Assembly: GCF_000003815.2 (NCBI RefSeq)
Contig: NC_049981.1
Span: 17,965,041 to 18,029,040 of the forward strand
Direction: 5' to 3'
Length of the DNA: 64,000 bases
Source of the DNA: Branchiostoma floridae
Taxonomy: Eukaryota; Chordata; Leptocardii; Amphioxiformes; Branchiostomatidae
Shown piece by piece: positions 2,373 through 63,934 of this stretch. The translations under genes and the position numbers were made by a program. Each line of letters starts with the position of its first letter. The stretch's first letter is position 1. The notes beneath the pieces were generated by a model, which saw nothing but the letters and a program-made list of their open reading frames with translations, was not told the origin of the DNA and searched no databases.

Positions 2373-2899
2373 TGCAAGATCTTGTAGCAGAGTTGATGGG
2401 TTAATGGGCGTTACATCGCAGTACTCCTGCGCGCGCAACCTGTGGTCTCACTTGTATACAATAGGAGGGGGGCAGGCGAACCTTGAAACCCTGAAATTAA
2501 CTCCCTGAATTATGTATACCATACATGTCATCAGTCAGTAATGAGGCTGATTGTAAGCTTCATTTAATAAACTAGACAAAGATACTCGGCATGACACGCT
2601 TTCTGATAGTATATGTCCTGTATCCCTGATCCAATCCATCAAGAAAGATTTCCCGTCCGTCTTGGTTAGTGTCACGTGCACCAACAACAATTAAACCGAC
2701 GACGCATTTACACGCGTCACCAGGTTTTTCACCACGCCGAATCGTCAAACCAGTTTTATCTTTATGACAACAGGCACAGCGCGTGCTTTTACCAAACAGT
2801 GATTTAAAGCAAGAGTGTTTTTTCTGAACAGACTCTAAAAGCGCTGACGAATTCCCTGAATTTGCAAGAGAATGGCAAATTGTTCTCTGTCTTTAAGGG

Positions 2900-6149: not shown

Positions 6150-6250
6150 ATAGAATACAACACGGTGTATTCCGCATCACCCGAGGTGCCAGCCCGACCG
6201 CGGGTCGGATCGCCCGACGGCCGAAGGCCCGGAACACCCGTATCGAACGT
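6150..6250. repeat. Isolated GC-rich block, probable repeat fragment
   Basis: About 80 bases of very GC-rich sequence (CCGAGGTGCCAGCCCGACC and neighbours) sit abruptly in AT-rich DNA and contain CGACCGCGGGTCG-type palindromes. No splice-compatible reading frame was found. I read it as a dispersed repeat fragment. Confidence 0.3.
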
Positions 6251-7074
6251 TTTCGCGTCAAAGGTATGACATAAATCCAACTTACTCTATATCAAAACTT
6301 ACTCCATCCTAGCAGCTGTAAATGAGGAACCATTTATAGTTCAGAAATGAAAATTGGCATGCAACCTATAAACATATATGTGTAATTTCAACCTCATACA
6401 GTAATTTTCAGTGGGTCAGATTTAGAGGAACTGGTCGTCTGACAAGCTTACAAGGGTGTGGGCATCTTGAAATCAACTCAGTTGCTCATTAAGTGATCGA
6501 GCTCAAATTCAAAAATTTTAATCTCAAAGGGGACATATGCCTCTACCTTACTACCAAATTTCAACTCAATCGATTAAAAAATGAATCTGTTATGAAACTA
6601 TTTGCATTACTTTCTGACTCACCCTCGTAGCAGTATAATGATTATGAATGAATGAGTATCGACATTTCTGGCCAAGGTAAAGTTTGCACGAAGATTTTTT
6701 TTACTTTGTGCTACCGAACATCTGCTTCTCCCAGCCGCCAAGCCACGTAGTAAATCGAACACGAATCGAACCGTTTTTATTTGCAGTTCGAAGTGTTCCG
6801 CGGTCCCTAGCAACGTCGTTGCTAAGGAAAGGCTTGTCGCGTGACAGTTGGATGAAATTTCACCCGACTTAAACAGCTGTTTTAAACCTATTTGGCGGCC
6901 ATTTTACAAAGATTGCGTTATATGTACAAGAAGGGAACACCATGTGCTCTCTGTATAAACCGTTTTGGGGGGATTTTACGGCAATTAAAGTTAGTTTCAT
7001 GGTCATATTTGTTACATAGTAAAATTAGCAAAATGGCGGTGCCGTACGGGGCAAAAATTTCGACGAATTTCACA

Positions 7075-8470
7075 TTGACGGCATTTGCATTACGCCCTCG
7101 ATTCTATCTTTAATGACTAGTGAATTAGCTTTGTCGAATCTTCAACTACAACTCATGTAAAGATCCTGTTGGTTTGAAAGTTGGAAAGGTTTGAAAGTCC
7201 ATGTCTATCGGGGTCACCTTATCGACTGTTTTACGCGCAAATATTGCAAGTTGTCGGGTGTAGCTGATTCGAGTACAGCTGGCTTTTTAACACAAGTTGC
7301 GGTACCGATGCACATCCCCGGTATTGTCAGAGGACGCATACGGAATAAAACAGTGTTGAGACGGACTGAATTAGCAAATGCTACATTGGTCTTACGGCAA
7401 CTAGGACGCAAATCCGGCGGTGCGTGTCTGGCGCGGGCTCCGTGGAACGGGCGTGGACGCAAGGGCGGAAGCGTTCTTTTTTGAATGCCTCTGATGAGGT
7501 GCCCTCGCGCGAATGGGAAAAAAGCCTATTACTACCACGAAATGGATAGCATGCCATATACCGACTGAAAGAAGAGAATTCGGACAATTCTGTGCACTAA
7601 ATTTTCCGTTTATTTTCAAATCTGTCACAAGATAAAAAAGCGGTGGAAATTGCACTAAAATCAACTGATTTCAGGTTATAAAATCAAATGGATACAGCTA
7701 GACAAATCTGTTAAAAATCCAAAGGAGAGAAGTGAGAAGCTTTAAAATTGTATATGCGATGAAATGTTGAATATACATAGTTGTAAGCTCAAGCAGCAGG
7801 CTTTCTTGTGAGTAGTCCCAACACCCGGGGGTCATGGAACGTAGAACTGTCCCAAAACGGCGCGCGGTTCGCTACGGTAGTCAGTTAGAACTTTTGAAGT
7901 TATATTTATATCATCTCGGATTGGCATATCAACTTGAAAGTTGGAATTTATATACGGGTGACCACTGTTAACTTGGTTCCGGTCAAAGATTCGATATCTA
8001 TGGGACGAAGACCTGTCCAGAGTCGATAATTACTGAAAAAGTCAAATCGGGCGCGTTCTATTCTGGAGTCAAAATTATGACATGACTCCGCGCGGATTGG
8101 CGGCATTTGCATTACGCCCTCAAAATCTATGATGAGTCTTATACCGACAGAAACTACAATGTTTGCTCTTTCTTGATGTCCCAAATTCCTGTTGGTTTGA
8201 AATCTACAACAGTTAAAAAATATGAGGTGAAATTACACGAAAATCACGAGATTTCGGGCCGTATTATTGACGGGAAAACGATAAACTATCGGTTCAAAAA
8301 TCCACAGAGATAACAAATGAGTCTAAAATATTGTAAATAACTTGACATTAGTAAGATAAACGGTAATGTACTCCTGCGATAAGCTTTCTTGAAGGGGCTG
8401 TTGACGCCCGAAGTCATGGAACGGACTACTTTCTCTCGCGGAAGGAAAATAAAAAAGCCTCGAACTCTCG
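7075..8470. repeat. Diverged direct duplication of about 1 kb period
   Basis: GGCATTTGCATTACGCCCTC occurs at about 7081 and again at about 8101, each followed at similar distance by CCTGTTGGTTTGAAA. AAGCTTTCTTG or GGCTTTCTTG followed by GTCATGGAAC recurs at about 7800 and 8380. Order and spacing are kept, so this is a diverged tandem duplication. The longer open frames here match no family I know. Confidence 0.4.
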
Positions 8471-8668
8471 ACGTGGCGTGGCGGCTGTCTCCGGCCTTAA
8501 ACTTTACACTTAAACTCAAATAATGTTGACACGCCACTTGAATATGCGTACAAGTGTGAACGGGGCTTTACGGTTCCCATTATCCTTGTATTTTCCTACA
8601 GCTATCGGCAGACACAAGAAAAAATAGACAAGAATCCAACAACTAAGCGAAATGGCAGACAAATTAGA

Positions 8669-9214: not shown

Positions 9215-11427
9215 TCAGGGCCAAGTCGGCCACCTTGATGGCCGGTTGTTTCCCCTCGTGCGCTGTCGTCTGCGGGGCTTCGTGCGCTGTCGTCTGCCGG
9301 AAGTACGGTCAGGCCTCGTGCGCTGTCGTCTGCCGAAAGTACGTTCAGGCCTCGTGCGCTGTCGTCTGCCGGAAGTACGGTCAGGCCTCGTGCGCTGTCG
9401 TCTGCCGAAAGTACGTTCAGGCCTCGTGCGCTGACGTCTGCCGAAAGTACTTTCAGGCCTCGTGCGCTGATGTCTGCCGGGAACATTTTCTGGCCTCGTG
9501 CGCTGACGTCTGCCGAAAGTACTTTCAGGCCTCGTGCGCTGACGTCTGCCGATGGTACCTTCAGGCCTCGTGCGCTGGCGTCTGCCGAAAGTACGTTCAG
9601 GCTTCTTGCGCTGACGTCTGCCGATGGTACCTTCAGGCCTCGTGCGCTGACGTCTGCCGAAAGTACGTTCAGGCTTCTTGCGCTGACGTCTGCCGATGGT
9701 ACCTTCAGGCCTCGTGCGCTGTCGTCTGCCACGTTCAGGCTTCTTGCGCTGTCGTCTGCCAAAAGTACGTTCGGGCTTCTTGCGCTTCGGTTGTCTCGTC
9801 CGAGGTATTTTTATGCGCTGACGCCTGGCAGAAACTTCTCCGGGGCGTCGGCCTTGACGTCCAGCTTGATTCTTTCTGCCTCCTCTCACTCTACCTGTCT
9901 CCGGGGGCTGTCGCGTACCAAAAGCACCTGTAGGCTTCGTCCGCTGGCCTCTGTCTCGCCGGCCACCTTTCCCCCGTCCGAGTCCCCATCCTAAAGCCTT
10001 CTTTCTTTGCTTTCGTTCTTTCTTTTGCATCCTGGGGGAAAACTTGGCATTGCGAGATTTCGCGGGAGCTCCCCATATTCCCTGGGGAGATTTCTTCGCC
10101 TTTCGTTCCTTCGTGGTCTCGACTTTCTTCCGCCGGGCATTTTTCTTCGCCTTTCGTTCCTTCGCGGTCTTCACTTTCTTCCGCTGAGCATCTTTCCTCT
10201 CATCTGTTTTTCTTTCCTTTACTTTCTTCTCATTTTTTCTCTGTTTCTTCTCCTTTTTTTTCTGTTTCTTCTCCTTTTTTCTCCGTTTCCCCTTGTCAGT
10301 TTCACTTTTCTTCTGTTGTTCTTCAGCAGCGGCAGTCTCTTCGACAGGCATTCCTTCTTCATCTTCTTTCTCTCCTTCTTCTTCAAGGTTGCCTAGGCTG
10401 TTCTCTAAATCATACTCCAGCTCTTTCTTCTCCTTTTTCCTCTGTTTCTTCTCCTTTTTTCCCCGTTTTTTCTTCTTTTTTTCCCGTTCCTTCTCCTTTT
10501 TTCTCCGTTTCCCCTTGTCTCCTTCTTTCTCTCCTTCTTCTTCAAGGTTGCCTAGGCTGTTCTCTAAATCATACTCCAGCTCTTCCTCAAGATCGTTTTT
10601 CAAACTTTCAGCATTCTTAGCCTCCAGATGTAGACTATCTTCTATGTCTTGCAGCACGCCATAGTCTTCCTCAATCATCTTCTCTTGTTCTTCAAGCTGT
10701 TCTTGTATAAGGTCCTGTTCTTCCTGTTCCTCAATTTGCCGTTCTTGCAACTCACTTAGCTCATATGCCACACTTTGTTCTTCTTGTGCAAGATATGGTT
10801 CCTCGACTAGCTCCTCTTCAGTGGGTTCCAACTCTTCCTCTTCGGCCTCAACCTCGCGACTCTTCTGCTTCTTTTTCTTCTTTTGCCTCTTTGAAGGCTC
10901 TTCCCCTTCCGTTTCCTCGCCTCCTTTTCCCTTCTTGCTTTTTCTTCCACCCTTTCCTTTCTTTCCATCATCTTTTCCTTTCTTGCCGTTTGCTCCTTCT
11001 CCTTCAGTTTCAAGCTCCTCTTCAGTGGGTTCCAACTCTTCCTCTTCGGCCTCAACCTCGCGACTCTTCTGCTTCTTTTTCTTCTTTTGCCTCTTTGAAG
11101 GCTCTTCCCCTTCCGTTTCCTCGCCTCCTTTTCCCTTCTTGCTTTTCCTTCCACCCTTTCCTCCTTTTCCTCCTCCTTCTCCTCGTTTTCTGTCTTTTCC
11201 TCCTCCTCCCTTTGCCTCCTTCTTGCTTTTGTTTCCACCCTTTCCTCCCTTTGCCTCCTTCTTGCTTTTCTTTCCACCATTTCCTCCCTTCTTGCTTTTC
11301 TTTTTATCCTTTCCTCCCTTTTTTTTCTTTTTTGCTCTTCTTTTGCTCCTCTTCTTCCCGACGGCGTGTGAATCCGGTCGTTTAGTATCAAATGACTCAT
11401 CGTTTGGAGAAATCCACAATTGATTGT
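9215..11427 (-). CDS. Exon 3: Lys/Glu tracts and Arg-rich repeats
   Basis: Acceptor CTGCAG|ACAATC, then NQLWISPNDES in frame with exon 2. The exon is 737 codons including the TGA stop. Composition moves from Lys/Gly through Glu/Lys to Arg/Pro/Gln. The exon contains a 204-nt duplicated block and a 36-nt array. Confidence 0.8.
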
Positions 11428-13324
11428 CTGCAGCTACAACACAAGAAGTAAAAATTTAACTAGAGAGGTTACATTTGCAAGCAAATGCACAAAGTTCACC
11501 TTCACGTGGTCTAACCTAAGAAACTACTATTCTGTTTGATCTTTTATACTAAACACATTCAGACCAGCCCCTCCAGAGTTGTCCTGCCATTTGCTTTATT
11601 ACGTAATCGAACAGCAAAGGGTGTCTGCTACTTTTCCCAGTAACCATTGTGATAGCCGTCTGGTGCAGGTCATTGATGTTATTTCTTTGGAAAAAAAGAA
11701 GAAGCGGAGCAAAAACAATGTGTCTCTTTCGTGAATAAAGATAACAAAGGCCTTCAACTTTTTAAGACGAGTGATCAAGCAAAAATGAAAAAAAGTTTTT
11801 TTAGAAAGGTGACAACATTTTTCAACGAATCGACTTTTAGCCCCGATAACGGGAGCGTACTCACTATGTTCTATCAGTCCGTCATCCGTATGATGTGAGT
11901 CCCTGTAGTTTGCTGGATGGTGGGTAGGAAGCGCTTGTAACTCAGCTGTCCCTGGAGTGCCGTCATCATCGGTGTGGTTACTGATGGGGACGGGGCTATC
12001 AGCTGTCGCGTCTTTCTGCTACAAGTCACAGATAGAGGGAAAGTGTTTCTTAAGGTGCACTCTCATCGGACGTAGGGCACGCTGGCGGTATTGCGGGGTT
12101 CGTTCACTGCGTCACTGTTTTGTTATTTTCTCCGATTTTTTACAATTCAGATATTGCGTAATACGTAAAAGTATGACATAGAAGACGACAAAATACACAA
12201 CAAGTAAGAAAATTCGTTCTTTATCTCTGAAATGCATGTAAACAAGGATAATTGCCTCTGTACGTTTGACTGTAAAATCTTGGTAGAAATGACTGATCTA
12301 CTTTACTTCGTCCTTCTTATTTTCTTGGCACGGTAAGCCCCAGAACGTGTGGACGCCTGTCAATATTATAATGATCGGTGCAAAATCCAGTTTGATTTAA
12401 CACTTGATTTACTTTATTTTACTTGACGTATGTCTATCACTGATTTTCAGTTCTCCCTATGTTTGCTTTCTGTTAGTTCAAAGTTATAATTTATTGTATA
12501 TTCCTGTTGCTATATCTTGTATTGTTTTATTATGGACTCCAGGAAGACTAGTGATTTATCACTAATGGAGATCTCAATAAACCAAACCAAACCAAAATCC
12601 AGTCCACTGATTTTTTTCAGGTCCATTTTATCGGACTGGTCCAAGAAAAAAACTGTTTTGCACTTGTATGAAGTACTGGTACCCACCCCTAGTTTAGATT
12701 ATAGACTAACTGTACTGGTGAAAATGAATCATTCTGAGGGTGACGGCGAACCCCCTTAGCAGCAAAATGTTTTAATACCGTTTCAAATTGTGAAAAACAA
12801 TATCATTATAATGATATCATTACCATGAGTAATAAATCACTTTGTTGTGTTTCCGATTACGACGCTGGAAAAATCGCCGTCTGTAGGTAGATATTATTTT
12901 ATTTTTCATTTCTATTTTCAATTTCGGCCGAATACATTTTAGCAGTGTAAAACTAATGGACGAGGCACTGGTACTTTCAACATCATTGAGTAATCATACA
13001 AATATACATTGAACAAGAACAAGTATATTGATGAAGTGAACAAAGAAGTACAATATTTACTACACATTTTTTAATTCTAACATCTGAAGCCCTAATCTGA
13101 TGTCAGCGTTAAGCACAGGAAGTTTGTTTTGCATTTCATATCAAATGTCAGGTTGAATATTCTGTTCCTTGTCAGCAGCGGCCGACTAAAAAGCTAGGGT
13201 CATACCGGACACCCCGTCCCCCTTCCGTGGTGTTAGTGTCTGAACTAACCTGAAAGTTGACCTCCGAAGCAGACCAGGACGCGAGACTGAAGAGGATCAG
13301 CCACAGAACCGCCGAGTCCCGCAT
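9215..13324 (-). CDS. Secreted Lys/Arg/Glu-rich low-complexity protein
   Basis: Three coding exons are joined: 13250-13324, 11865-12015 and 9215-11427, about 812 aa. Exon 1 encodes a signal peptide (hydrophobic AVLWLILFSLASW, then SAS). Exon 2 is acidic and His-containing, with one N-glycosylation sequon (NHT). Exon 3 runs through Lys/Gly tracts (GGKGGK, KSKK), two near-identical 68-residue blocks with SKRQKKKKKQKS and long Glu runs, then a C-terminal array of about 14 units of RRQRTRPERTFG type. No enzyme domain is visible. Splice sites are GT-AG and the phases fit (0, then 1). The product is not recognised; a matrix, mucus or mineral-associated protein is only a guess. Signal peptide, exon phases and a GGKGGK tract are shared with the plus-strand gene at 21490-30800. 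The 3' end is uncertain, and further downstream exons are possible. Confidence 0.75.
9265..9800 (-). repeat. 36-nt coding tandem array (12-aa Arg-rich units)
   Basis: About 14 units with a 36-base period encode RRQRTRPE(R/S)TFG variants. Because the period is a multiple of three, several other frames on both strands also stay open; those frames are by-products. Unit-to-unit identity is high, pointing to ongoing expansion or homogenisation. Confidence 0.9.
10809..11163 (-). repeat. 204-nt internal duplication inside exon 3
   Basis: Two near-identical copies begin at about 10809 and 11013, offset by 204 bases (68 codons). Both encode KSKKGKGGEETEGEEPSKRQ followed by a Lys run and EVEAEEEELEPTEEEL. 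The similarity suggests a recent in-frame duplication. A second, shorter duplicated block (YDLENSLGNLEEEGEKE) occurs near 10380 and 10540. Confidence 0.85.
11428..11864 (-). other. Intron 2 of the Lys/Arg-rich gene
   Basis: GT-AG intron of 437 bases between exons 2 and 3. Nothing else was recognised in it. Confidence 0.65.
11865..12015 (-). CDS. Exon 2: acidic/His-containing exon
   Basis: The exon is open for 50 codons plus one base, from acceptor CAG|AAAGAC (or TAG three bases upstream) to donor CATA|GTGAGT. Its phase 1 end joins the next exon in frame as Asn. Reads KDATADSPVPISNHTDDDG and onwards. Confidence 0.75.
12200..12691. mobile_element. Truncated hAT copy split by a LINE insertion
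   Basis: Sequence on both sides of 12392-12593 aligns in order with 14050-14290 (TTGGTAGAAAT, ACGTGTG.A.GCCTGT, TTTTTTTCAGGTCC) and ends in GGTACCCACCCCTA, the terminal repeat of the intact element. The left end is missing. Confidence 0.65.
12392..12593 (+). mobile_element. Non-LTR (LINE-type) tail insertion with 10-bp TSD
   Basis: This 202-base insert is flanked by identical AAAATCCAGT at 12382-12391 and 12594-12603. It ends in ATCTCAATAAACCAAACC, an oligo(CAAAC) tail after a polyadenylation-like hexamer, as in 3' ends of CR1-like elements. It is heavily 5' truncated and non-coding. Confidence 0.75.
13250..13324 (-). CDS. Exon 1: signal peptide exon
   Basis: The 25 codons read from ATG at 13324 through a hydrophobic core to a phase-0 donor (CAG|GTTAGT). 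Charge pattern (Met-Arg-Asp, hydrophobic stretch, small residues) fits a cleavable signal peptide. Confidence 0.8.
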
Positions 13325-21567: not shown

Positions 21568-24500
21568 GTAGGGTTAACGTTGTTTCAAGACATGGCGGTT
21601 GGGTCTTAGCACACTTTAGTGCTAGTGTATCATTAGCACAGTTCGTCACTTAAGTTAAGTGTATTAGCATTAGCACGCTATGTCCACACCGCCGCCGGTA
21701 ATGTTTCGTGGCGAACGTGATGAGGCTTTGTGACTCGGGGTGTACTTTCTTTTTCGATACTTGTACAACATGTATATGTTCAATCATTCATCACGATACT
21801 ATCGTACATTTGTACTTAAAAAAAAATTGCTCTATACACGTTTTAGCTTGCCAAATCCCTAAAAAGTAATGAAACGCTGGTATATGGTATCAACGGGGTC
21901 AGCGATATGACGACAGCCGTACGCGTTTCAAATGACGACAACTGTACGTTCCGGCGCGCCATTCTCGAAAAGCCAACAAGGCCGTGAAACTGTATACCGT
22001 ATTGGATCAAGTCATTAACTTTAACTCCCAACAGCCGTGTTTAGAATTTGTTCATGGCCAAAAAACAAACTTAGGCCCCGTTCATGATGCAAAAAATGAA
22101 ACGGTTCTATCGGTTACTATCGGTTAGGCCAGCTGAAACATGATAAGTTTTGTCATCATGGACGGTCCGAAACGGATATGAAGCGATAGGAAACGGTTTG
22201 TTCGGAACCTCCTCGCGAGGTAGTATTGAAACGGTTTCTTCGTTATCCGGAATTGCGAATTTGCATCATGAACGCAAAAGCGGCGCGATCCGTTTTGCAT
22301 CCGGGCATGTGCGTTCATATTTGGTGGCGCCACGGGGGAAAAGTACAATTTTTAACCTGTCATTCGGCATTTCGGGTGTTTCGGCCGCGTTTTCAATCGT
22401 ACGATTCGTTTCTATAATCGGGCCGCCTCCTGGTCGACTGAGGAGCTAGCAGTCCTGATATCGCAATGGGAATGTGTCAGGAGATCCAGTGGAAATGTCA
22501 TAGCATGGCATATATCGGGACCACAATGTTTTCAGAGGCATTTCCAAGGTCATAACAGAACCCAGCTTCGAACTCAGTAAGACATTGGTTCAATTACGAT
22601 CAAAGACCAATAATCTGACACAGAAGTACAAGTTTGGGCAAGATCACAATAACCTCAGGGGTCAGAGGTCGCATTACCTTGCCTCCTAAAAGGAACTGAA
22701 ACGGTTTGCAAGTTTGCATCGTGAACGCAAAATGCAAACCGTTTCCTGTCGTTTGCTGTCGGATTTCCAGGCCTAACCGATAGAACCGTTTCATTTTTTG
22801 CATCATAAACGGGGCCTTATTGTATTTCTTAACCTAATTTCTGACCCTTTTCTTATGTGGCGTTCATCATGAACGGAAGACGACAGACGAGGAAGCCAGC
22901 ACCGAAAATGAGAAGTATTCACTTGAAACGACTAGTGACTCAAAAGAGCCCACTATTGATCTGTATGAGAAACACAGGGACGGAGTGGACGTTACTCTAA
23001 CAAGTATTCCAATACCACATGGTAAGTTACATGTATCATTCACCAAGAAGGCTATGTTTTTCGTTAACGTTACCGTTTGTGGCTTCCATACCTCCGGGAA
23101 AGGATGGTCACCTTCTGACGGAAGGTTTTGAAATTGTCCGTATTGGTTGTTCGCAGCTGTATCTCACTATCGGTTCGGTGGATCATAATGTTCAGAGCTG
23201 TAACGTTATCTGCGTAATGTTATGTGTCATGTAACGTTATATGAGTTCTGATCAAGTCATCATGTGTGCTGGACTGACGTCAGAGGTGCATTTAGGGGGT
23301 GGGGTGTGGGTGTGAAGTGTAGTGCCATCCTAAATGTTTTCAATTGCATCGATTTTTCCTGATGTGGAATAATCCGGAAGTTATATACTATTATAGCAAA
23401 TAGTGACCAATTAGCGGTGACACTGTTGCGTCTTTTTTTGCGATTGAACAGCTGACGTTTCGTGTGGTTATAGGACAGCGGTAAACGAATTCGGTCTATA
23501 TCCCACAAAACAACGGAGGCTTGTATCCTTCGGACACTTGTTTGTGGTTTAAGACCATGCCTCAAGAAACTCTTGAAGGATTGTTATGAAGTTTGGTATG
23601 GGCACCCCACCTTTATGCGAGCAACCAAACAGGCCAGTCACTTGAAGCGGTCCATATCGAATCTTTTTATTATATAAACCACAAAACAGTAGTGTCAGGA
23701 TTAAGTGTTGTACCAGGTTTAGAAAGACATGAAAATGTTACCTGAATCCGGGTCTTGCACAATGGGTTGCGGTCGCATTTGTCTCGTCACGAAAATGCAA
23801 ATGAGCAAACGCCCGATTTCACGACCACGAAATTGGAATATGACCTGACGTTGCGACATTGCACGTGAGTTGCCCAATCCCGGCACGCGAGGAAGCCCAG
23901 GACAGCGATCGTGCCCCACGACGTATGTCTATGATTCTCAAACTGACAACATACAATTGAAGAATCGCTGGGAAAAATGATGCCCCACGACGTATATTTA
24001 ACGTTATGTCTATGATTCTCAAACTGACAACATACAATAATTGACGAATCGCTGGGAAAAATGATGCCCCACGACGTATGTCTATGATTCTCAAACTGAC
24101 AACATACAATTGACGAATCGCTGGGAAAAATGATGCCCCACGACGTATGTCTATGATTCTCAAACTGACAACATACATCAGTTCTGTCATATCTGATTTC
24201 ACATCTGACAGTGCTACCGTAATGATGTGAATATGTGACATATGACAATGCGAAGAACTTCTGTCATCTGCCCTACTATGATGACCTAAAATATTACACC
24301 AAGTCAGGTTTTTAATCTAACATCTGACATTGGTCCTTACACCAAGTCAGGTTTTTAATCTAACATCTGACATTGGTCCTTGCGCCATGTCAGATTTTTA
24401 AATCAGATTTTAGATTGAAATAATCTGACTGTTTGAAGACGAATGTTTGATGTTTGATTCAAAAATCTGACAGTGCTACAAAAAGTGTCAGATGTTAGAC

Positions 24501-27500
24501 TAGAAATCTTACATTGGGAGGATGATTGTCAGATGTCAGACAGGAAATCTGACAATAATATGAAAAATGTCAGGTGTTAGATTAAAAATCTGACATGGCG
24601 TAAGGACAAATGTCAGATGTTAGATTGAAAACCTGACATGGTGTAAGGGCCAATGTCAGATCTTAGATAAAAAAACTGACACCGGTTGTAAGGACCATTG
24701 TCAGATGTTACTAGATTTAAAATCATAGTAGGGCAGATGACAAAATTAGTTCTTCGCATTGTCATATGTCACATATTCACATCATTACGGTAGCACTGTC
24801 AGATGCGTCAATTGCATGTTGTCAGTTTGAGAATCATAGACATACGTCGTGGGGCATCATTTTTCCCAGCAATTCGTCAATTGTATGTTGCCAGTTTGAG
24901 AATCATAGACATACATCGTGGGGCATCATTTTTCCCAGCAATTCGTCAATTGTATGTTGTCAGTTTGAGAATCATAGACATACGTCGTGGGGCATCATTT
25001 TTCCCAGCAATTCGTCAATTGTATGTTGTCAGTTTGAGAATCATAGACATACGTCGTGGGGCATCATTTTTCCCAGCGATTCGTCAATTATTGTATGTTG
25101 TCAGTTTGAGAATCATAGACATAACGTTTATACGTCGTGGGGCATCATTTTTCCCAGCGATTCGTCAATTGTATGTTGTCAGTTTGAGAATCATAGACAT
25201 ACGTCGTGGGGCACGATCGCTGTCCTGGGCTTCCTCGCGTGCCGGGGTTGGGCAACTCACGTGCAACGTCGCAACGTCAGGTCATATTCCAATTTCGTGG
25301 TCGTGAAATCGGGCGTTTGCTCATTTGCATTTTCGTGACGAGACAAATGCGACCGTAACCGCACAGTGCGTCAGGTACGAACCAAATGATGGCAGCTACA
25401 GTGACAGTACAGTACTAAGATCACTTCCGGGTTAGCTCCCGACCTTGCCCCGACAGCCAGTGGCGGCGGTAGTCGAACCCTCCGCCCGATCTTTGGTGCC
25501 AGCCGTGTCCCAACCATTTTACAACCACCTGTGGTACACTCCCATCCATCGCTTCTAGCCGCAGTCACTGCCGACTCCCCTGATTCCCAAACGATTGCCA
25601 ACTCTCTCATGATCAAGGCTCAAAATGGACCTAGCTGATGACAAGCGATTTTCCAAGTGCCGGGGTCATGTTTTTCTCTTCGCCAAGAAGAGTATGAGAT
25701 TGCTTGACTTGGGTCTGTATGTAGGTCAACAGCATATAACTCGAGAAATTGTGGATGGAACTTTGTGATTTTTGGTAGGTGTGTAGCAGTTGTCGAAAGG
25801 AATGCCAAGTTGGAAAACGGTTCACCTGGCGTTTTCCTACGGTACTGCAGCGAGCTTGGTATGTTTTTTTGCGGTTTGTTTTTGGCAGCATAAGTCAAAA
25901 TCCAGCTGGGCGATTTTCACGAAACTTGGTAGGTGTGTAGCGGTTTTGGAGAGGAAGGTCAAGTGCGAAAATGGTTTACCTGGCTCTTACCTATGGTGCT
26001 GTAGCGGGATTTGTATGTAAGTGCGTTTGTCTGTAAGCAAGATAACTCGAGAAACCTTGAATGGATCCTGATTATATTTGTTAGGTGGATTGGGGTTAGG
26101 AAAACGAAGGTCAAGTTCGATAATGGGCACCCTAGTGGCTGTCTAAGGTACTGCAGCAAAACTTTTAATTTTGGCACTTCGTGTCTTGGACATGCTGTGG
26201 TCATGATTTTTGAGTGGTAGATAGCCCTTAAAACAGAGAGTAAGTGCTGTGAGTTTGGACCCCCTAGCGGCTTTTTGGGAACTGCAGGCACCGATTTCCG
26301 TTCAAACTTTGGACGAGGATAACTTGAGAACGTGTAAACAGATCATCAGGATTTTCGGTATGTAGATAGAATGAGTAATGACTTATACAATGTAATATTA
26401 ATTATGCAAATCAGTAGCTTATTTGCATAATTAATGAGGAAAGTTCATAAATCCATGCCAACAGCATATAACTCAAGAAGCTGTGTATGGATTTTCATGA
26501 TATTTAGTATTTAAGTAGCGGCTGCGGAAAGGAAGGTTGTGTTCGAAAATAGTTGACGTAGCATTTTCCGTTAGGACGGTAGCGGGCCGAGTGTGTGCGT
26601 CCTTTTGTTTGTGGAATGCATAACTCGAGAAGCCTTGAAAAAATCCTGATGATATTTGGTAGGTGGGTAGGGGTCAGGAAAACGAAGATAAATTATGATA
26701 GTGGGCCCCCTAGCGGCTTCCTAAGGTACTGCAGCAAAACTTATTAACAGAAATAAACTGTGCTCTATATATCTCATTTTGACCTATATCTATGGACACA
26801 GCTGTTATACAGATGGTTTGCTGGAGGACGCCCTTACACTGGGGACAGTCATGAAATTCTGATTGACCAGGGATGCTACCAGGTCATCTGTCAGGTCACA
26901 GTCTGGTTTTGGTAATGTTTGTGTGTTTGTGAGGAACAATAAGACCTTAAAGTCTTAAATAAAGGCATGATTATTTGGCGAAGAGATGGGTTCGTTGAAC
27001 TCTAGTTTTTAAATGAAAATGATCCACTTTATGTTGTAAACACCATGATAAAGAGATCAATATTTTGCTTCAATAGGAATTCTAGGTTTTCTCCAATTAT
27101 ACAGTGTCTCTGGTTGCATCCGTTGTGTGAAGGTTGGGGGAGTAATAGCACAGCTTCTGGTAGTCACCTCGTTTGGGAATAAAGTTAGAAAAGATTTAAT
27201 TCGGGGGCAAAAGGGTTGACTGTGAGATTTTTTCTCACTCATTTGATTTGATATAGGCATTTTGTTCCATTTGTGAACATCTTTAGGTCAAAATTGTATA
27301 TTTAGAATATTCATAATAATTATAATTTATATATTTGTATATAATCGAATGACCAATTATTCGGTATAGGTGTGCCTTGAACAATTGCCCATAGAACGTC
27401 ATTGACACTTTTGCCATACATTACTTCAAAATGATTAATTTTGCTATTTGGTGTCATACTTATACCAAAAATGAACCTTTTGGGCTACTGTGCCCTGGAA

Positions 27501-30500
27501 TTACAGCTGAATAACCTGAAACTGGGGATACACACGTAGGGGTGCCCGTTGGACTTCAGTCAAACGTTTTGGTAACACATTACCTAAAGATGAGTTTAAA
27601 AATTTTACGATTTTTTTTATCATTCCTTAGATCAAAATGTACACTTTTGGCTTCTGTGGAAAGTTAGTAGGGGTGCCTTTATACTAGCAATTTTTGTCCA
27701 TTATTAAATTAAGAAAAAATGTACATTTTTGGCATCTGCATCATTAACCAAATGACCTGAAACTTGATATAGAGATATGATCGATATATGCCCATAGGCC
27801 TTTTGTTTTCAAAACAATTTTGGCATACACAAGTGATTTAATTTTTTTGCCAACAATATCTCTTGGAAGAGTCCATCTTGAATGCGGTTCAAGATGGGAA
27901 AACATTTTTGACTGGTGTGGTCTTAGAAACTGTTAGGCTACAGTTAGGCTTTTTGGCTACAGTAAATTTTGCTCAGTCTGTCTCAAATGGTATTTGACAC
28001 AGGGTGCCAATGGAGGAGTCCGTTCTTGCATGGGGTATTTGAACTCTTTGACTACAGGGATGGTGGAGGTGTCTTCTTGGAATACTCCATTATGGGTGCT
28101 GTGAAAAAGTCCATTCTTGCATGGAGGGTCAAGTTGGAAAAGGTCAATTTGGACTGGAATGACATTGCAAGAGTTCAGACTTTTGAAATATTCCATTTTT
28201 CCACGGGCGATTATGGAATGGTCCATTTCTACATGATAAAGGAGATGGGGGAAATATGATGTATTTGCTTACTAATGTTGCCCTTCTGGTTTGTGCAATT
28301 TTCTTCCAGTATTCTACATAAAAACAGTTAACTGCTGTGTAGAAATTTCCAGACAAGTCAAGTGTTCTAAAAGTTGGATTTTTATCTGCTTTTGTTCATC
28401 TAGCATCCGATGGTTCACTGCAACCATTGCCAGAGCCCTACCAGTTACAAGCAAGTGACTCAAAATCAGTTGGGGAAGAAGAAAATGTGGCAAAGTCAAG
28501 AACAAAGAGGGCAAAGAAAGGAGGAAAGGGAGGAAAAGGAGGAAAGAAAAACAAGAAGGGGGGAAAGGGAGGAAAGGGAGGAGGAAAGGGAGGAGGAAAG
28601 GGAGGAAAGGGAGGAGGAAAGGGTGGTAAGGGAGGAGGAAAGGGAGGAAAGGGAGGAAAGAACCAACCAGTAGAAGAAGAGCCAATGATGGAAGAAGAAC
28701 CACCGATGGAAGAAGAGCCACCGATGGAAGAAGAGCCACCAATGGAAGAAGAGCCACTGATGGAAGAAGAGCCACTGATGGAAGAAGAGCCACTGATGGA
28801 AGAAGAGCCACTGATGGAAGAAGAGCCACCAATGGGGTATGTAAACGAAGAAGAGATTGAGCCAATGGTGGAAGAGGAACCAGTAGTAGAGCCTATGTTT
28901 GAAGAAGAGGCAGCACCAGCCAACATATATGAGGATGAACTTAGAAATAACAGAGAAGATTACAGACAGGAGTTGATCGAACACGAGGAGCCTCCTATCC
29001 AAGGTGATTATGAAGAACCACCACCTCCTCCACCACCACCTCCTCCACCACCACCTCCTCCACCAGAACCCATCCAGCCTCCAGTCGTACGGCAGCCACC
29101 GCCGCCACCTCCTCCTCCTCCTCCACCTGCACCTGCACCTGCACCTGCACGTGCACCTGCACCACCAGCTCAAGAGGAGTACTTTGAGCCTGAACAGGAG
29201 AACATGGACATGATAGATGTGGAAGAACAACAGCCGGGTGTGATTGTCAATCAGTACGAGAGCCCAGGTCCTGGAGAGACCTGGAACCAGCCTCCCCCCG
29301 GCCTGGCACCGTTCCAGATTCAGCCTCATGCGGGCGCCCAACCTCCACATGACAACTGGCCAAGTCCGGAGGTTAATGCACCAGAGCCCGGCCTTGCACC
29401 CCAGATAGTTTCCCCAGGCAGTGAGTCAGCTCTGTACGACACCCAGAATCCATTAGGACCATCTCCGGGGGTTGCTCCTCTGCATCCCGGGGTAGGACAG
29501 CCTGCGTCGTACGACAACAGTCAGAGTGCCTGGGTCCACGGTCCCGAGATTGTAGAGCCACACCACACGTCGTCAAACGTGTTCCCACATCCCGAGGTCT
29601 CAGGCCCTGAGATCCTGCCAGTTCCTGAAGTGGGCTTGAGTCCAAACCACCTACAGCCTGGATCATACGAGCCAGAAATGGGTCCAAACCCGTACTCTCA
29701 AGACCAACCATCCATAATAGTGGATCACACCTTGTTCAATTCTGGCGGTGCCGGAATGGTACCGCATGGTGAAGCCCTGCCAGCCGAGAGTTTTGCACAC
29801 GAGCCCGCCTGGTCAGGAGAGGATTTTCACATGGCAAATGGACAGGGTTTACCACATGACCATCACCCAGGCCATATTGGGGGTTTACCACATGACCATC
29901 ACCAAGGCCAAATTGAGGGTTTACCACATGACCATCACCCAAGCCATATTGAGGGGGAACCACATGGCCATCACCCAAGCCATATTGAGGGGGAACCACA
30001 CAACTATCAAACAGGCCTTAGTGAGAAGGAAGATTACTTCCAATTGAAAGAGGCGGCAGACAAGAATGAACTCCTCCAGGTAAATCATCATTTTGTTCTA
30101 ACCTTCACAGAAGGGAAACATATTGTTTTTGCTCCATTTCTTCTTCTTCTGTTCCAAACAAGTAAGGTCAATAACCTGGACCAGACTGCTGGAGGTGTTA
30201 CAGACATTGTAGCAAGTGCCAGGACATAGCTGGAGGTGCTAGTCACCATATATATGAAATTGATAAATTCAGAATGTGTTTTGAGTAAGATTAAACAAAG
30301 CAGTACTTAAATTAAGCTGGACAAAATTAAGGTTAATGTTATTTATTTGCTTGCAAATGTTACCTTGTTAATTCTGTCATCCTCTGTACATTTGTAGTGT
30401 AGGTGGTGAAGGTTTTACATGTATCTTACATTGCATCAGACAGGAGAAAAAGATCCAACTTAAAAGTACAACAGTTAATGTAGTTGATTCAGAAATGCAT

Positions 30501-40336: not shown

Positions 40337-54323
<13,987 letters not shown>

Positions 54324-57902: not shown

Positions 57903-58440
57903 TCAGGATGTCATTAGTGGTCTCTTCAACTTCAAAAGCCTACAGACTTTATTACATCTCGGGTGCTGCTCTCTCCAAAAAGCCTGGACCCCCCGGTCAC
58001 CTAGGTTACCTCTCCCGTATTTCTTTATCTCCTCCGAATGAATCTGAGGGTCTGTGAAGTATGTCACCCCCCTCCCGTCCACAGTGGTCCAGCCCTGTAT
58101 GTCTACTATCATCAACTTTTGCCCTGATGCTTCGTAAGTGAAGTGAGTGAACGCAGTTGCCAGTCCACTGTCCAGGACAGGGTGTTTATACTTTAGATTG
58201 TTGGTCAACTTCACAAAGTCCCCATCGATGTACGGCTCCACGTTGATGGTGAAGCTCTCGGGTTGGGAAGGGTTAACTTGAAGGGTAACGGCCGGAAGGT
58301 ACTGGATCTGGCCAAAGGCCTGCTGATGCCGCAGCTTGTGGTTGAAGACGGTGACATACTTGCGGGCAGTCATCTGGCAGCAGACGTCTTGGCGATACTG
58401 TTCATACGGTTTGTCCTTTTTGTATCTCTTTCCAACATAT
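57903..58440 (-). CDS. ALPK1: ALPK1 last exon (alpha-kinase core)
   Basis: Acceptor TATTTTTAG|ATATGT joins phase 2 to give Arg, then YVGKRYKK. It contains VEPYIDGDFVKLTNN, MIVDIQGW, YFTDPQIHS and GRGNLGDRG, and ends with TGA at 57903. Confidence 0.96.
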
Positions 58441-61400
58441 CTAAAAATAGATCGGTTACAATAAAAATGTGTGACACTGTATGGAAAAGTATATATTCTG
58501 AATGATTTGTACACTTTAGATTTTATACATGATACTAATGTACCTTATTTTTATACACAAGTATCAATCACAGTAAAAATTCAGATTCGGGACAATTGCA
58601 GATTGTCCTAGACCTGATTAGAATCAGGATATGTTGCAGGAAAATCCACAATTCTACTTTTACAAATTTTAATTGTAATCTGTCCTGGGACAAACTAGAA
58701 TCTATTCCAAAATTATTGCTTGCAATTAGGATCTATTCTTGGACAATGATCTGCACTAGACTATAGACAGGGTTAGAAAGCTTTGTTGAAAGTTACCTGC
58801 CCATAGCCTCCTCCTGGCTGATGTACTGGACAAAAAAAGCATCTCTCTGTTTCCCCTTCTTGTCATCACTAAGTAGGAGGGGGTCCCCAAGGTACACCAA
58901 GGTGTTCTCTGACTCCCACCTGTCATTGAATGGGTCATACTTGTGAAGCAAAGCCTCTGTAAAAGGACAAGCACAAATTAGCCCGGAAACCAATCTTACA
59001 TAAATATTGTCACACAAAAGGAGGAAAAGAGCAAGAAAGAAAGAGAGTGAAAAAGAGGGGAGGGAGGAAGGGAAGAAAGAAAGAAAAAAGAAAGGTAAGG
59101 GGTGAAATGACAGAGAAAAAGATGGTGAGTGAGTAAGATAGAAAGAGATGAACGTAGGAAAAGAGGGATCAATAACGTGATATTGAAAAGAAGCCCCTAG
59201 CATATTGCTTTATATTCTTTATTCGTTGCTATAGTTCTTTCATGAATATAAGATATCCAGATGGTAAGTAAGATCCACTTTATAAAAGCTACAGTAACTG
59301 AAGCAACTGGATAAGTTTTGGAAAACTTTGGAAAACTTATCCAGTTGCCTTTCAAAAGTTATCCAGTTACTTGAGTGACTTTTGCATTCTGTATGCTTTT
59401 TTTTTAAAGATTCACCTTGGAAAATGATGTAAAACTAGCTAGAATTAATAAGTTCTCTTGGGATTTCCAAGGGACACTTTTACTGGATACATTTTGGAAA
59501 TGGTCCAATGTTTCTGGTACCATCTACTACCTTTCATAAAAAACTAAGAATTGATAAGCAACAAGAAGATATTAAGTTTTAAATAGATGGTTCTACAAGA
59601 AAAAAAGTAGGCAACATCAAGACAAGGTTTATGCTAATGAATAAATTAGTTCCTGTTGTTCAAGTACAAGTTCTAATGTTGTTTTTTTTTTGGGGGGGGG
59701 GGCTGTAGGGCAGGGTCCCAAGTGCCTGGGATTGTTGGGCTTCTTTAGCTGCAGAACTTACTATGGACTCTTGTGACTGGTGACAAGTCTGCAAACATTT
59801 CATTCCATTTCTTCTGCTCTTCCGCAGACATTTTCCTTTCATGTCTGCTGTCACCAACATGGCTCAAACTGGTTTCATCCTTTCCAACGCCAATGTTTTC
59901 ATCTGACCCTACTTTTTCGTATGCCACATCAACAGTAGTTGCTGAAGGGTCAACGGTTAAACCCAGTGTGGTCATGGAAGGATCCACCGTGGAAGCTTGA
60001 ATGTGATGTTTGTCAACAGCTCGACATAGCCGGTCAACTTCTGTGGGAGGCTGTAGCCATTTTGCCTTTGTTTGGTCAACTGTAGTGGCTGAAGGATCTA
60101 CTGTGGACGATGAGCATATGTTGTCTTTGGGAACGTTTTTTCCAGCGGAGTTTGCTTCGTCCAAGTCAATGGTTGTGGCAGAAGGATCTACAGTTGATTT
60201 ATTGTAGTCACTGGTTCTGTCTTCATCCTCAGTGGTGTCAAACCCACTGTCAACTGTTCCCGATTTTTTTCCATTTTCGTCAACTGTCTGTGGGTTATTT
60301 TCTTCACCTGGCTGCCTTTGTGTTGTATGGTCGTTAGGCACAATGTGGTTGATTGACAAGGAATAAGACAGTGTTGTTTCTTTTGCTAAATCAGTGTTGT
60401 TGCCTCCAACTGTTTCCTGCAGTTGTGATGTGGACAGTAATGTTTCGAATACCTCCATAATGAGGTCTATCATCCTTTTCATTGACGATGTGAGAGACAA
60501 GTTGGTCTCCACAGCACAGTACTCTTCATACAGGTGCATGCACATTTTGGTCAGGTTGTTGCTCTTTTCCACTGCACCAGTCATCTCTAGCACCTGACAT
60601 GACTGGAACGAGGCACAGATGAATTCACACAACTGTTCTCTGCTCCTCAGGGCCTCCACACTTTCATGGGAATGTAGGCTTTCAGACAAGTTTGTCCTTG
60701 CTAACTGTAGGAACTTCTCCTTCTCTTGATCGTCTTGTATCTGCTGAGCACATAAGATGAGTACCTCACCAGCTCTCCTCTGTACAGGTACAACAGTTAC
60801 ACATGAGTAAGGAGCAGACCAGGAGGAACCAGTGGGTCCTGAAAATTGGGAGGACATCTGCGCTACATTACTATCCAGCAGGGGGTTTCAGGAATATATC
60901 TTGTGCATGCATGCAGCAGAGATGCTGCTAATATTTGTTTTGAACAATTTGTAGGCTAAATGGGAAACATCTTCAGCTTGGAATCACTTAAGCTGACGAA
61001 GAAAGACAAGAATGTCAAAGCTTCGGTGTGCATAAGAGACCAAGAGAGTAGCAGCTAGACACTACACATTTAACTTCCAGGGCTCATACATGTAGAATTC
61101 ATCTTATCCTGTCACACAAAATACTGATATTATGCTAGGAGACATAAATTATATGATCATGATTGTTAGTAAGTTGATTATTTCTTACATTTATTCATCC
61201 AGCCACTTCATAAACAGTTTCTGTAGCCTATTTAGCTTCAGTTAGCCAAAAACTTGCAGTGTTATACATGTACCCGATGTCTCGCGCAGAAGAGGGGGTC
61301 ATACTTTGACAGATGAGCAGCCTCCTCAGCTGCTCGGTACGCCTCTAACAGTGGGCTGTCTGCTTGTAGGGTGTACTGCTGCTTCAAAATCTGGAAGTCT

Positions 61401-63934
61401 AAACCATTTCAAGCAAATTATAATTCAAGTAAGGCCATGCAGATTAAAATTCATTAACTCACAGAATCTGATGAACTTTCATGCAAAAGATTCTTTGTTA
61501 GGTTTTCTACTGCAGAACGCTGTACCTCTGTATGATATGTTTTTGAACACATCCATCAGCAATCCCACACTGGAGGCGATCCCCTTCTTGTCAGGTTTGG
61601 GCAGCATTCTGAAGCCAATGATAGAGTCCAAAATCAAGGTGGAGGCATCGTACCACTGTCCTGCAAGAAGTATATACATGTAGTTGTGTTCAATAGTATC
61701 CCTGAACAGTTTCAGGTTGGTAAGTCACTGCATTACAAAGTTCTTTGTACACCAGTATTTTATTCAGGACCAACATTTCGGTCACCCTCTTTCACCTTCC
61801 ACCGAGAAGGTTTTTTTTCACGAATATCAAGTCTACCCAGTGCAATTACACAAAAATGTCTAAAAAATGTCCCAAACTAGCCGAAGCCTAACCACTTGTT
61901 GGAAAGTTAGTCAGTTTGATCTCTCACCAAGTTTCAGCTGGACCTGTCCCTTGATCTGAATGCAGACAGAATGAGCTATTGCTCTGTCAGAGTCACTTCT
62001 GTATGTCCAAGTCCCTGACATATGGAGAAAAAAGGTGTGATTTCAATCTTCAATTCTTGCTGAAAAAGACCATATATAATCCAAAAATATTATGATTAGC
62101 TAAAGAAACATCTTTTATTATACACCAGAAAAAGCTGAAACATGATATGCCAATGATGGTAAAAGGATAAGGTTTAGCGGTCAAACCTCAGCCTGAGGAC
62201 GAAGCATGGTGCTTTTTTGTCAGCTAGTAGTGCAATGCAGTTTATTGCTACAGCTTGCATGTTTAAGCCAAGCAGACAAGGTGAGCCCTACTCTTTTGGA
62301 ATAGTGTTTTGGATCCTTTTACGAGTTTGCAAAGACATAAAAATTTCATTTCTAGTGTTACTGACAGATAATGATGTTGAGAGACAAAGTTACAACCACA
62401 CTGACCTTTTTCCTTGTCAGGGCTCAGAACATCATCCAGAACTCTCTCAGCACCTTGAAGATCACCCGCGTTTGTTAACACCCTGGCTTTACGGATGACA
62501 ATCTGTACGTTTCAAGATCACATTGAACAGTTAGCAAAAGAAAAATTCATTTAGTGATGATGACAGCTTTGGATATACAGTTTTTAGAATTTCTTTCATA
62601 TGCATGTAACGGGGGCTGCCCTTATAAGATGCTCCCTGCCCTAAGATGCCACGGATTTTTTGCTTATCTTATTATGCATAAGTATGCCATGTTCGTTGCC
62701 ACTGACTATGATGATTAGAATGGTAAATAAACCAAGTCCAAACAAACAGCTATTTTTTCTATTAGAAAAATACTTAGTAATATTCACTTCCCCTTTTTTT
62801 TGAAGATAGGATTTTCACAATAATGTTGGTAGCGCCGAATCATTGTGGTCACCTGTTACTAGGTATCGGTGGCTCGTGTCCCTAAATATACAACCAGTAC
62901 AAAACAGCTACACAACTGTCATACACATAAGAAATAAAGCTTCACAAAACACTACAAATATTGGTATTCAAATGTTTGTTGAGCAGAAGACTGGCCATAG
63001 GAAAAACAACATAAGCATCACCGGTGTTGTTTTCCCGTAACATCTTAGGGTGGCCCCCGTTACCAGCCCTCTAATCTTCTACATGTATATCACCCTCCCT
63101 TAGCATGTCTTTCTGGGAGTGTGAACCCTGAATCTAATCAAGTCTTAAACTTTTAAGTTTGCTAACTGCAGAGTGCAACTAAAAATCAGCAAGTTCTGCA
63201 AAAATTCCTATGCAGAGATGAACCAACGTCCTAGAACTCTGCCTGGTTGTTTCTCAGCTTATTCACAATGCAGGTCCCACTATTGACCTGTCCTGCTTGT
63301 AAATATTAGAAAGCTTAGTACGTTATTTGGCTATTTAGTAGCCAGAGACTGCAAATTTCCAATATAAACTGTTTGTTTTTGTGCTAATAGTTTCTTTGTA
63401 TGTCTGGTTGACATCCAACAGATCTAAAATCTGGTGCCTGATATACAGGACTGTCAAAAGTGCTGTTCTCTTGCTTTTAAATATCAACAACCAGGCCTTA
63501 TTTGGCACAAGTTTTTCCTTTGGACAACTCAAAGGCCTCATAATTCTCTGATTGGATGACAGCTGGTAAGTGGCATCACCCACAATTATGTTGTGGAAAT
63601 AGGAATAGGCAGTTAAGCAGAGTAGCAGTTAAGCAGAGTACAAACCAGGCAGAGTTCTAGGACATGGGTTCATCTCTACGTAGGAGAATGACACTAATAC
63701 ACTGGTTAGGAAATGCTAAAAATTTCTAAATACATATTACAGTATGTAGATTTGTGAGTGTAGTCATTTTACCTGGGGAGGGACGGGTGTGCTTGGACTA
63801 TTTTGACGGATGTCATCAATGGCTTTAAGCAAACGAGGAGATGTACCCTGCCAAAAGGCATACCTGTCCAACAAGAACAGGATAGCAACAGCACGAGGGT
63901 AGCTCTTACACTCCACTGCTAGGTCTGCACACTC
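57903..63934 (-). CDS. ALPK1: Alpha-protein kinase 1 (ALPK1), 5' partial
   Basis: Eight exons join in frame into 773 residues: 63773-63934, 62406-62502, 61928-62014, 61526-61660, 61274-61398, 59762-60779, 58797-58956, 57903-58440 (phases 0,1,1,1,0,1,2). The N-terminal helical sensor domain matches vertebrate ALPK1 throughout (ILFLLDR, IVIRKARVLTNAG, GTWTYRSDSDRA, PKPDKKGIASSVGLLMDVF, YDPLF). A linker, shorter than in human, follows with four TVDPSATT repeats. The C-terminal alpha-kinase domain has GRYVGKRYKK (catalytic Lys), DIQGW, YFTDPQIHS and the Gly loop GRGNLGDRG. Vertebrate ALPK1 is a cytosolic sensor of bacterial ADP-heptose; it phosphorylates TIFA, which activates NF-kB. The first roughly 100 residues lie beyond the window. 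The gene looks intact, without stops or frameshifts. Confidence 0.95.
58797..58956 (-). CDS. ALPK1: ALPK1 exon (start of alpha-kinase domain)
   Basis: Acceptor CTTTTACAG|AGGCTT, donor GGCAG|GTAACT, phases 1 to 2. Encodes ALLHKYDPFNDRW, NTLVYLGDPLLL and FFVQYISQEEAMG. Confidence 0.95.
58957..59761 (-). other. ALPK1 intron with hairpin
   Basis: GT-AG intron of about 800 bases. It contains a purine-rich GAAAGAAAG tract at 59020-59110 and a hairpin at 59303-59348 (GCAACTGGATAAGTTTT and its reverse complement, 12-base loop). Confidence 0.8.
59762..60779 (-). CDS. ALPK1: ALPK1 large exon (end of sensor domain and linker)
   Basis: 339 codons plus one base, acceptor CTGTACAG|AGGAGA, donor CATA|GTAAGT, phases 0 to 1. 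The first 150 codons are helical and match the vertebrate sensor domain. The rest is a Ser/Thr/Asp-rich linker with TVDPSATT repeats, ending in a DLSPVTRVH stretch that leads into the kinase. Confidence 0.93.
60780..61273 (-). other. ALPK1 intron
   Basis: GT-AG intron of 494 bases. Nothing further was recognised. Confidence 0.8.
61274..61398 (-). CDS. ALPK1: ALPK1 exon (YDPLF)
   Basis: Acceptor ATGGTTTAG|ACTTCC, donor CATCGG|GTACAT, phases 1 to 0. Encodes LLEAYRAAEEAAHLSKYDPL with Phe following, the Phe295 position of human. The acceptor was chosen because it is the only one nearby that fits the phase. Confidence 0.85.
61526..61660 (-). CDS. ALPK1: ALPK1 exon (PDKKG)
   Basis: Acceptor CTTGCAG|GACAGT, donor CAGAG|GTACAG, phases 1 to 1. 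Encodes WYDASTLILDSIIGFRMLPK and PDKKGIASSVG; the Asp and second Lys align with human Asp231/Lys233. Confidence 0.95.
61928..62014 (-). CDS. ALPK1: ALPK1 exon (GTWTYRSDSD)
   Basis: Acceptor ATGTCAG|GGACTT, donor AACTTG|GTGAGA, phases 1 to 1. Encodes TWTYRSDSDRAIAHSVCIQI and KGQVQLKLG, very close to the human exon. Confidence 0.95.
62406..62502 (-). CDS. ALPK1: ALPK1 exon (sensor domain, VIRKAR)
   Basis: Acceptor CGTACAG|ATTGTC, donor AAAAAG|GTCAGT, phases 0 to 1. Encodes IVIRKARVLTNAGDLQGAER; the Arg-x2-Arg pair aligns with human Arg150/Arg153. Confidence 0.93.
62503..63772 (-). other. ALPK1 intron
   Basis: GT-AG intron of 1.27 kb. ATCTTAGGG and CGTTACC / GGTAACG phrases near 62610-62650 and 63040-63065 (GGGGGCTGCCCTTATAAG, GGTGGCCCCCGTTACC) are inverted to each other and may bound a roughly 450-base foldback element. 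No coding content was recognised. Confidence 0.6.
63773..63934 (-). CDS. ALPK1: ALPK1 exon (sensor domain, FLLDR)
   Basis: 54 codons, phase 0 to 0, acceptor TTTCTACAG|GAGTGT, donor CCCCAG|GTAAAA. Encodes CADLAVECKSYPRAVAILFL and LDRYAFWQG, and ends PSTPVPPQ. Earlier exons are outside the window. Confidence 0.93.

Follow-up and report, generated by a model that had tools for sequence, protein, structure and literature searches.

Is the direct sensing of bacterial ADP-heptose by ALPK1 a property of vertebrates, or is it older? A 2025 paper (PMC12457700) states that neither ALPK1 nor TIFA is found in invertebrates. The locus that raises the question lies in a 64,000-nucleotide stretch of the genome of the amphioxus Branchiostoma floridae (C3:17965041-18029040, here called the window), whose last 6 kb carry on the minus strand the 3′ part of an ALPK1 ortholog that crosses the window's right edge. 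The 5′ exons, whose recovery had been proposed in a preliminary description of the window, were found in the adjoining 50 kb of the same genome, where the 10-kb segment L003 (C3:18029041-18039040) supplied two of them. The joined gene model has 10 exons, with 8 coding exons inside the window and 2 beyond it, and it encodes 853 amino acids followed by a stop codon (Table 1). All nine of its introns have GT/AG ends and their phases agree; the five sensor exons (3 to 7) have AG/GT borders throughout and splice in frame, and the Arg codon that precedes the YVGK kinase motif is split between exons 9 and 10. Exon 1 is the shakiest and least certain of them, as it was placed by phase, start codon and splice donor and not by similarity. 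Joining exon 7 to an acceptor near 60838 was rejected as out of phase by a hand count; the acceptor before 60779 that was used for exon 8 keeps the phase, and with it the protein aligns on to human residue 389. In the assembly searched (513 Mb, 431 contigs) the sensor query gave 8 matches, all of them exons of this same gene, and no second sensor copy was seen among the best candidates that this search scored (9 here). By this predicted gene model the amphioxus genome holds a complete ALPK1 gene and, for ALPK1, contradicts the absence statement of the 2025 paper.

Table 1. Features of the amphioxus ALPK1 locus. Plain numbers are window positions; prefixed numbers are positions in the segment of that name.
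Feature	Position	Strand	Content
ALPK1 exon 1	L003:2546-2489	-	start codon, donor site, phase
ALPK1 exon 2	L003:589-408	-	F61 and Q67 equivalents, both identical
ALPK1 exon 3	63773..63934	-	R116 equivalent (FLLDR)
ALPK1 exon 4	62406..62502	-	R150 and R153 equivalents (VIRKAR; human VIRQAR)
ALPK1 exon 5, sensor domain	61928..62014	-	GTWTYRSDSDRAIAHSVCIQIKGQVQLKL
ALPK1 exon 6	61526..61660	-	D231 and K233 equivalents (PDKKG); T237 to Ser
ALPK1 exon 7	61274..61398	-	Y254 to Phe, S277 to Glu; F295 equivalent kept (YDPLF)
ALPK1 exon 8	59762..60779	-	end of sensor domain; linker of STVDPSATTVD-type repeats in which T[VI]D occurs 9 times
ALPK1 exon 9	58797..58956	-	alpha-kinase region begins
ALPK1 exon 10	57903..58440	-	alpha-kinase core: YVGK (K1067 equivalent), DPQIH, stop codon
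ALPK1-FHA intergenic gap	L003:2547-3222		676 bp
kB-type site	L003:2791-2800	-	GGGGATTTCC
kB-type site	L003:2881-2890, overlapping match 2882-2891		GGGGACTTCC
FHA gene exons 1-3	L003:3223-3295, 6232-6300, 6986-8493	+	in phase, ends in stop, 549 residues
ORF inside FHA gene intron 1	L003:5071-5745	-	225 aa, non-LTR retrotransposon-like by eye; in Pfam, sub-threshold ALKBH8_N match only
Cadherin-like frames	L006:9293-9724, and nearby L006/L007 frames	-	upstream of ALPK1 by some 31-41 kb; one frame tested, E 7e-4, below Pfam's cut-off
Phytanoyl-CoA hydroxylase-interacting protein gene exons	40337-45634	-	PHYHIP_C 4.9e-77; fn3 exon 1.2e-5
Long repetitive ORFs, Lys-rich and Gly/Glu/Pro-rich	9215-11455; 28343-30229	-; +	perhaps low-complexity proteins
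Repeat units (CCQFENHRHTSWGIIFPSDSSI translated)	23787-25338 (23787-24263; 24721-25338)	-; +	inverted-duplication-like

The remaining features of the window are listed in Table 1 alongside the locus itself; Rfam gave no match at gathering scores over the window, and NCBIfam gave no match. The fluorescent protein mNeonGreen is derived from a lancelet. As a query it found 69 exon matches of up to 88% identity, which form lancelet-type GFP clusters on C4, C17, C14 and C3; in the PDB one of these exons (L041) matched lancelet-type fluorescent proteins, lanFP10A first (E 1.2e-30), and another (L043) differs from lanFP10A by eye at 1 of 61 residues. A vertebrate origin of the window is ruled out by these clusters. 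The Pfam GFP model found no match in this genome or in its 14 control genomes, which we read as a failure of the search on split exons.

By phmmer against the PDB, the five-exon sensor fragment matches human ALPK1 (5z2c_A) with E 2.1e-45, and the full sensor domain is collinear with residues 41 to 389 of the human ADP-heptose-binding domain in 5Z2C (HMMER, E 2.6e-59); at E up to 0.001 the sensor query matched 2 distinct PDB sequences, both of them ALPK1. The amphioxus protein has the same order of sensor domain, linker and alpha-kinase as human ALPK1 (PDB 5Z2C, 8ZD3), but it is shorter (853 aa against 1244), contains nine additional residues, split over two sites, ahead of R116, and carries TVDPSATTVD-type repeats in its linker. 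Residue numbers used here are those of the human protein and were fixed by the published T237M and K1067R primers, which by eye translate to KKGLS[M]SLGIL and GRYVG[R]DYKE.

Eight residues (F61, Q67, R116, R150, R153, D231, K233 and F295) are said to touch ADP-heptose in the human structure, a list given by the preliminary description and reportedly that of Zhou et al. 2018; the description saw six of them kept inside the window and placed F61 and Q67 outside. Alignment of the predicted protein with the sequence of the human sensor structure bears this out for all 8 of the 8 listed contacts: the six in the window are identical in the HMMER alignment to 5z2c_A, and F61 and Q67, both identical as well, were found in exon 2. 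Identity over human residues 41 to 295 is 108 of 255 columns (42%), and the hypergeometric P for eight contacts of eight arising by chance is about 9e-4 (3e-3 as the product of the residue-type identity rates). It might be argued that the contacts are kept for stability of the fold in a kinase with an unrelated input, since they sit by eye in well-conserved blocks and ligand binding is not readable from sequence; complete identity at the contacts against a 42% background (P about 1e-3), together with an FHA-domain gene that adjoins ALPK1 as it does in human, makes this highly improbable. A scan of a contig collection for bacterial relatives of the sensor, with a 109-aa piece, gave 39 pattern matches, none of them related. 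Since the gene is an ortholog, its listed contacts are conserved and the DNA comes from amphioxus, it follows at the level of sequence that the contact pocket is older than the vertebrates. The larger claim of the preliminary description, that direct sensing predates vertebrates, is partly supported: it holds for the ortholog and its pocket residues, which amphioxus has, while ADP-heptose binding by the amphioxus protein remains predicted.

Of the eight listed residues, R150 is the one that the published text consulted confirms, as critical for ADP-heptose binding by human ALPK1 (PMC11614533); the same paper makes T237, a further contact that the list does not include, a hydrogen-bond partner of the sugar. 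This specificity gatekeeper is Ser in amphioxus; Y254 is Phe, and S277, which that paper describes as strongly conserved among vertebrates, is Glu. In its experiments on human ALPK1, the substitutions T237A, T237M and S277F let human nucleotide sugars into the pocket, so that UDP-mannose and ADP-ribose activate the kinase, with the S277F effect ascribed to a bulky hydrophobic side chain, whereas Y254F and S277A are wild-type-like. A report cited in the literature describes activation of ALPK1 by UDP- and CDP-heptose as well. Since the residues that bind phosphate are generic and the specificity positions 237 and 277 differ in amphioxus, the pocket might be kept and yet serve another nucleotide sugar in amphioxus (UDP- or CDP-heptose, for example, or an endogenous one). 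The activation of the human mutants by UDP-mannose and ADP-ribose and the reported activation by UDP- and CDP-heptose fit such a change of ligand; however, Ser at 237 retains the hydroxyl through which T237 binds the sugar, in the human protein Y254F and S277A have no effect, and Glu at 277 is not hydrophobic, so that we regard another ligand as rather unlikely. From the kept Ser237 hydroxyl and the neutrality of Y254F and S277A, binding of ADP-heptose by amphioxus ALPK1 is likely, and its specificity may differ from that of human ALPK1.

The kinase half is also recognizable as ALPK1. In the PDB, the closest matches to the two final exons are ALPK1 kinase chains (E 3.6e-57 and 1.3e-56); eEF2 kinase (2.4e-20) comes next, followed by myosin heavy chain kinase A (6.9e-20), two proteins that share the alpha-kinase fold but match the kinase far more weakly, and the sensor query matches ALPK1 chains only. 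Pfam Alpha_kinase matches the amphioxus C-terminus with 2.6e-43. The catalytic lysine, Lys1067 in YVGK, was correctly described as kept, since YVGK is present in exon 10 and the K1067R primer fixes the numbering. A human ALPK1 construct of residues 959 to 1244 has been reported (PMC6718413). Genome-wide, the kinase search found one further place, on C13, which is an alpha-kinase (Pfam 1.1e-28) that looks eEF2K-like by eye.

Upstream of amphioxus ALPK1, a gene model with FHA domains faces it divergently, with 676 bp between the two start codons. Pfam recognises an FHA domain twice in its protein, with E 1.9e-14 for the model as a whole. A phosphothreonine-reading FHA domain is expected to have an Arg, an SRxH motif and an Asn; by eye the second domain, FHA2, keeps these, and FHA1 is without the full set. 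The human TIFA and ALPK1 genes are presumably also arranged head to head. Gene lists in two papers give the human 4q25 order as AP1AR, TIFA, ALPK1, NEUROG2. What is new here is an FHA-domain gene head to head with amphioxus ALPK1, where human has TIFA. This shared neighbour relation is our argument for the FHA gene as the TIFA counterpart, a candidate whose TIFA identity is not settled by its sequence; we infer that it would act as an adaptor. Other linkage is slight: AP1AR gave a single over-cut-off match, interrupted by one stop, on C3 at 15 Mb from ALPK1, and one of the two over-cut-off copies of DUF4605, which we take to be FAM241, lies on C3 at 7 Mb from it. Each of these placements alone is weak, as C3 makes up 34 Mb (about 7%) of the 513-Mb assembly.

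The preliminary description looked to this genome for a TIFA with its N-terminal Thr, and none was found as such; what stands at the TIFA position is the FHA-domain gene. A tblastn search with human TIFA gave chance-level matches only, the best (E 2.5) inside the FHA gene, and neither the FHA neighbour protein nor its second module matched the PDB at E up to 10. When 1573 ORFs from 22 of 29 loci (L003 and L009-L029) were searched by phmmer with TIFA, the neighbour was fifth among the matches listed (3.8 bits, not significant), and first among them was the FHA exon of L015 (12.1 bits), which is presumably NIPP1-like. With a profile built from two TIFAs and one TIFAB, hhalign returned P 2-3e-4 for each of the neighbour's two FHA domains; 18 of 19 other FHA matches scored worse, although many of these make weak controls because they are short fragments of exons, and as L015 reached P 2.0e-4 the profile match is not specific. 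Aligned without gaps, human TIFA T9-G24 fits the protein best at residue 410, where TVDTPT lies directly before FHA2 (6 of 16 identical; 230 of 2000 shuffles reached 6 of 16 somewhere). Like TIFA (human 4YM4, mouse 6L9U) and TIFAB (8WWY), the amphioxus gene encodes an FHA protein beside ALPK1, and it has a Thr before its second FHA domain that is a candidate T9-like site; it differs from them in its 549 aa, its two FHA domains, its three TVD motifs in residues 1 to 60, and the absence of both a significant single-sequence match and a PxExx(Ar/Ac) TRAF6 motif at its C-terminus. The one PxExx(Ar/Ac) match elsewhere in the protein (PVESDD, between the FHA domains) is no commoner than chance, and TRAF6 and TRAF2 motifs overall are not above chance in it.

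The two proteins share the motif T[VI]D, a pattern picked after viewing the sequence, so that its values are descriptive. It occurs 9 times in the ALPK1 linker against 0.34 expected (a count that none of 20,000 shuffles attained) and 4 times in the FHA neighbour against 0.44 expected (P 8.5e-4), three of these within the first 60 residues. The human ALPK1 linker may still hold a DPDASTVDEEG stretch; a literature search for this human linker motif did not find it. The intergenic gap, for its part, contains two separate kB-type sites. The kB consensus is GGGRNYYYCC, likewise chosen after viewing the sequence; as a descriptive value, L003 as a whole has 4 matches where 0.59 are expected, a number that 2 of 200 shuffles attained. 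Of the 4, 3 lie inside the gap, two of them overlapping.

These observations bear on whether the FHA neighbour is an unrelated FHA protein placed there by chance, in which case only the sensor would be ancient and the amphioxus substrate would be something else. The low TIFA score behind that of L015, the slightly better profile P of L015 than of both FHA domains, the PDB result and the lack of the C-terminal TRAF6 motif all fit a chance neighbour. But FHA matches (E up to 0.01) number at least 21 in 513 Mb and two of these fall in this ORF, its position relative to ALPK1 is as in the human TIFA-ALPK1 pair, T[VI]D is enriched in both proteins, albeit as a motif picked post hoc, and the best T9-G24 match falls directly before FHA2. 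We consider a chance neighbour less likely than not, though by no means remote.

We conclude that amphioxus has an ALPK1 ortholog whose most likely role, judged from its predicted protein, is to sense bacterial nucleotide-heptose in the cytosol. The sensor and kinase matches in the PDB, the contacts kept throughout, the phased 10-exon model, the lack of a second sensor copy among the candidates scored, the Branchiostoma identity of the genome, the FHA gene placed head to head beside ALPK1 where human has TIFA, the AP1AR and DUF4605 matches on C3, weak as each is, the kB-type sites and the neutrality of Y254F all point this way; T237S and S277E, at sites where other substitutions shift the ligand specificity of human ALPK1, count against it, as do the partner's weak TIFA identity by sequence, its chance-level TRAF motifs and an ALPK1 exon 1 placed by phase and splice sites. 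The parts and residues are those observed above, and we infer the signalling steps that would join them. ADP-heptose or a close nucleotide-heptose would dock in the concave pocket by way of the conserved Arg, Lys, Asp, Gln and Phe residues and so free the kinase, which would phosphorylate threonines of its partner, in the N-terminal TVD repeats and before FHA2, and perhaps also its own TVD-rich linker. Once bound to these phosphothreonines, the FHA domains would polymerise, and the polymer would recruit TRAF proteins and switch on NF-kB. The two kB-type sites may let NF-kB feed back on the promoter that the two genes share. A bolder proposal, tentative and as a whole somewhat improbable, is that ALPK1 and its FHA substrate are an ancient, pre-vertebrate chordate sensor-adaptor pair, placed head to head on one kB-bearing promoter. 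Under that joint proposal the ancestral adaptor would have had two FHA domains, the TVD phosphothreonine motif would be common to kinase and adaptor, the activated kinase could itself seed the FHA polymer, and vertebrate TIFA would be a trimmed remnant.

Literature searches, which covered few subscription papers, returned for ALPK1 and amphioxus a single paper, with passages on TRPM channels, no co-mention among the matches listed for a loose query covering TIFA and amphioxus, and no TIFA or ALPK1 among the matches listed for gene order; amphioxus ALPK1 may well already have automatic database entries. The changes that amphioxus carries naturally at positions 237, 254 and 277, which are ROSAH disease positions, offer a test of what maintains the specificity of the pocket. 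Amphioxus ALPK1, together with the FHA gene at the TIFA position, likely pushes the origin of cytosolic ADP-heptose sensing back before the vertebrates, and suggests that this bacterial-sugar alarm system is older than they are.
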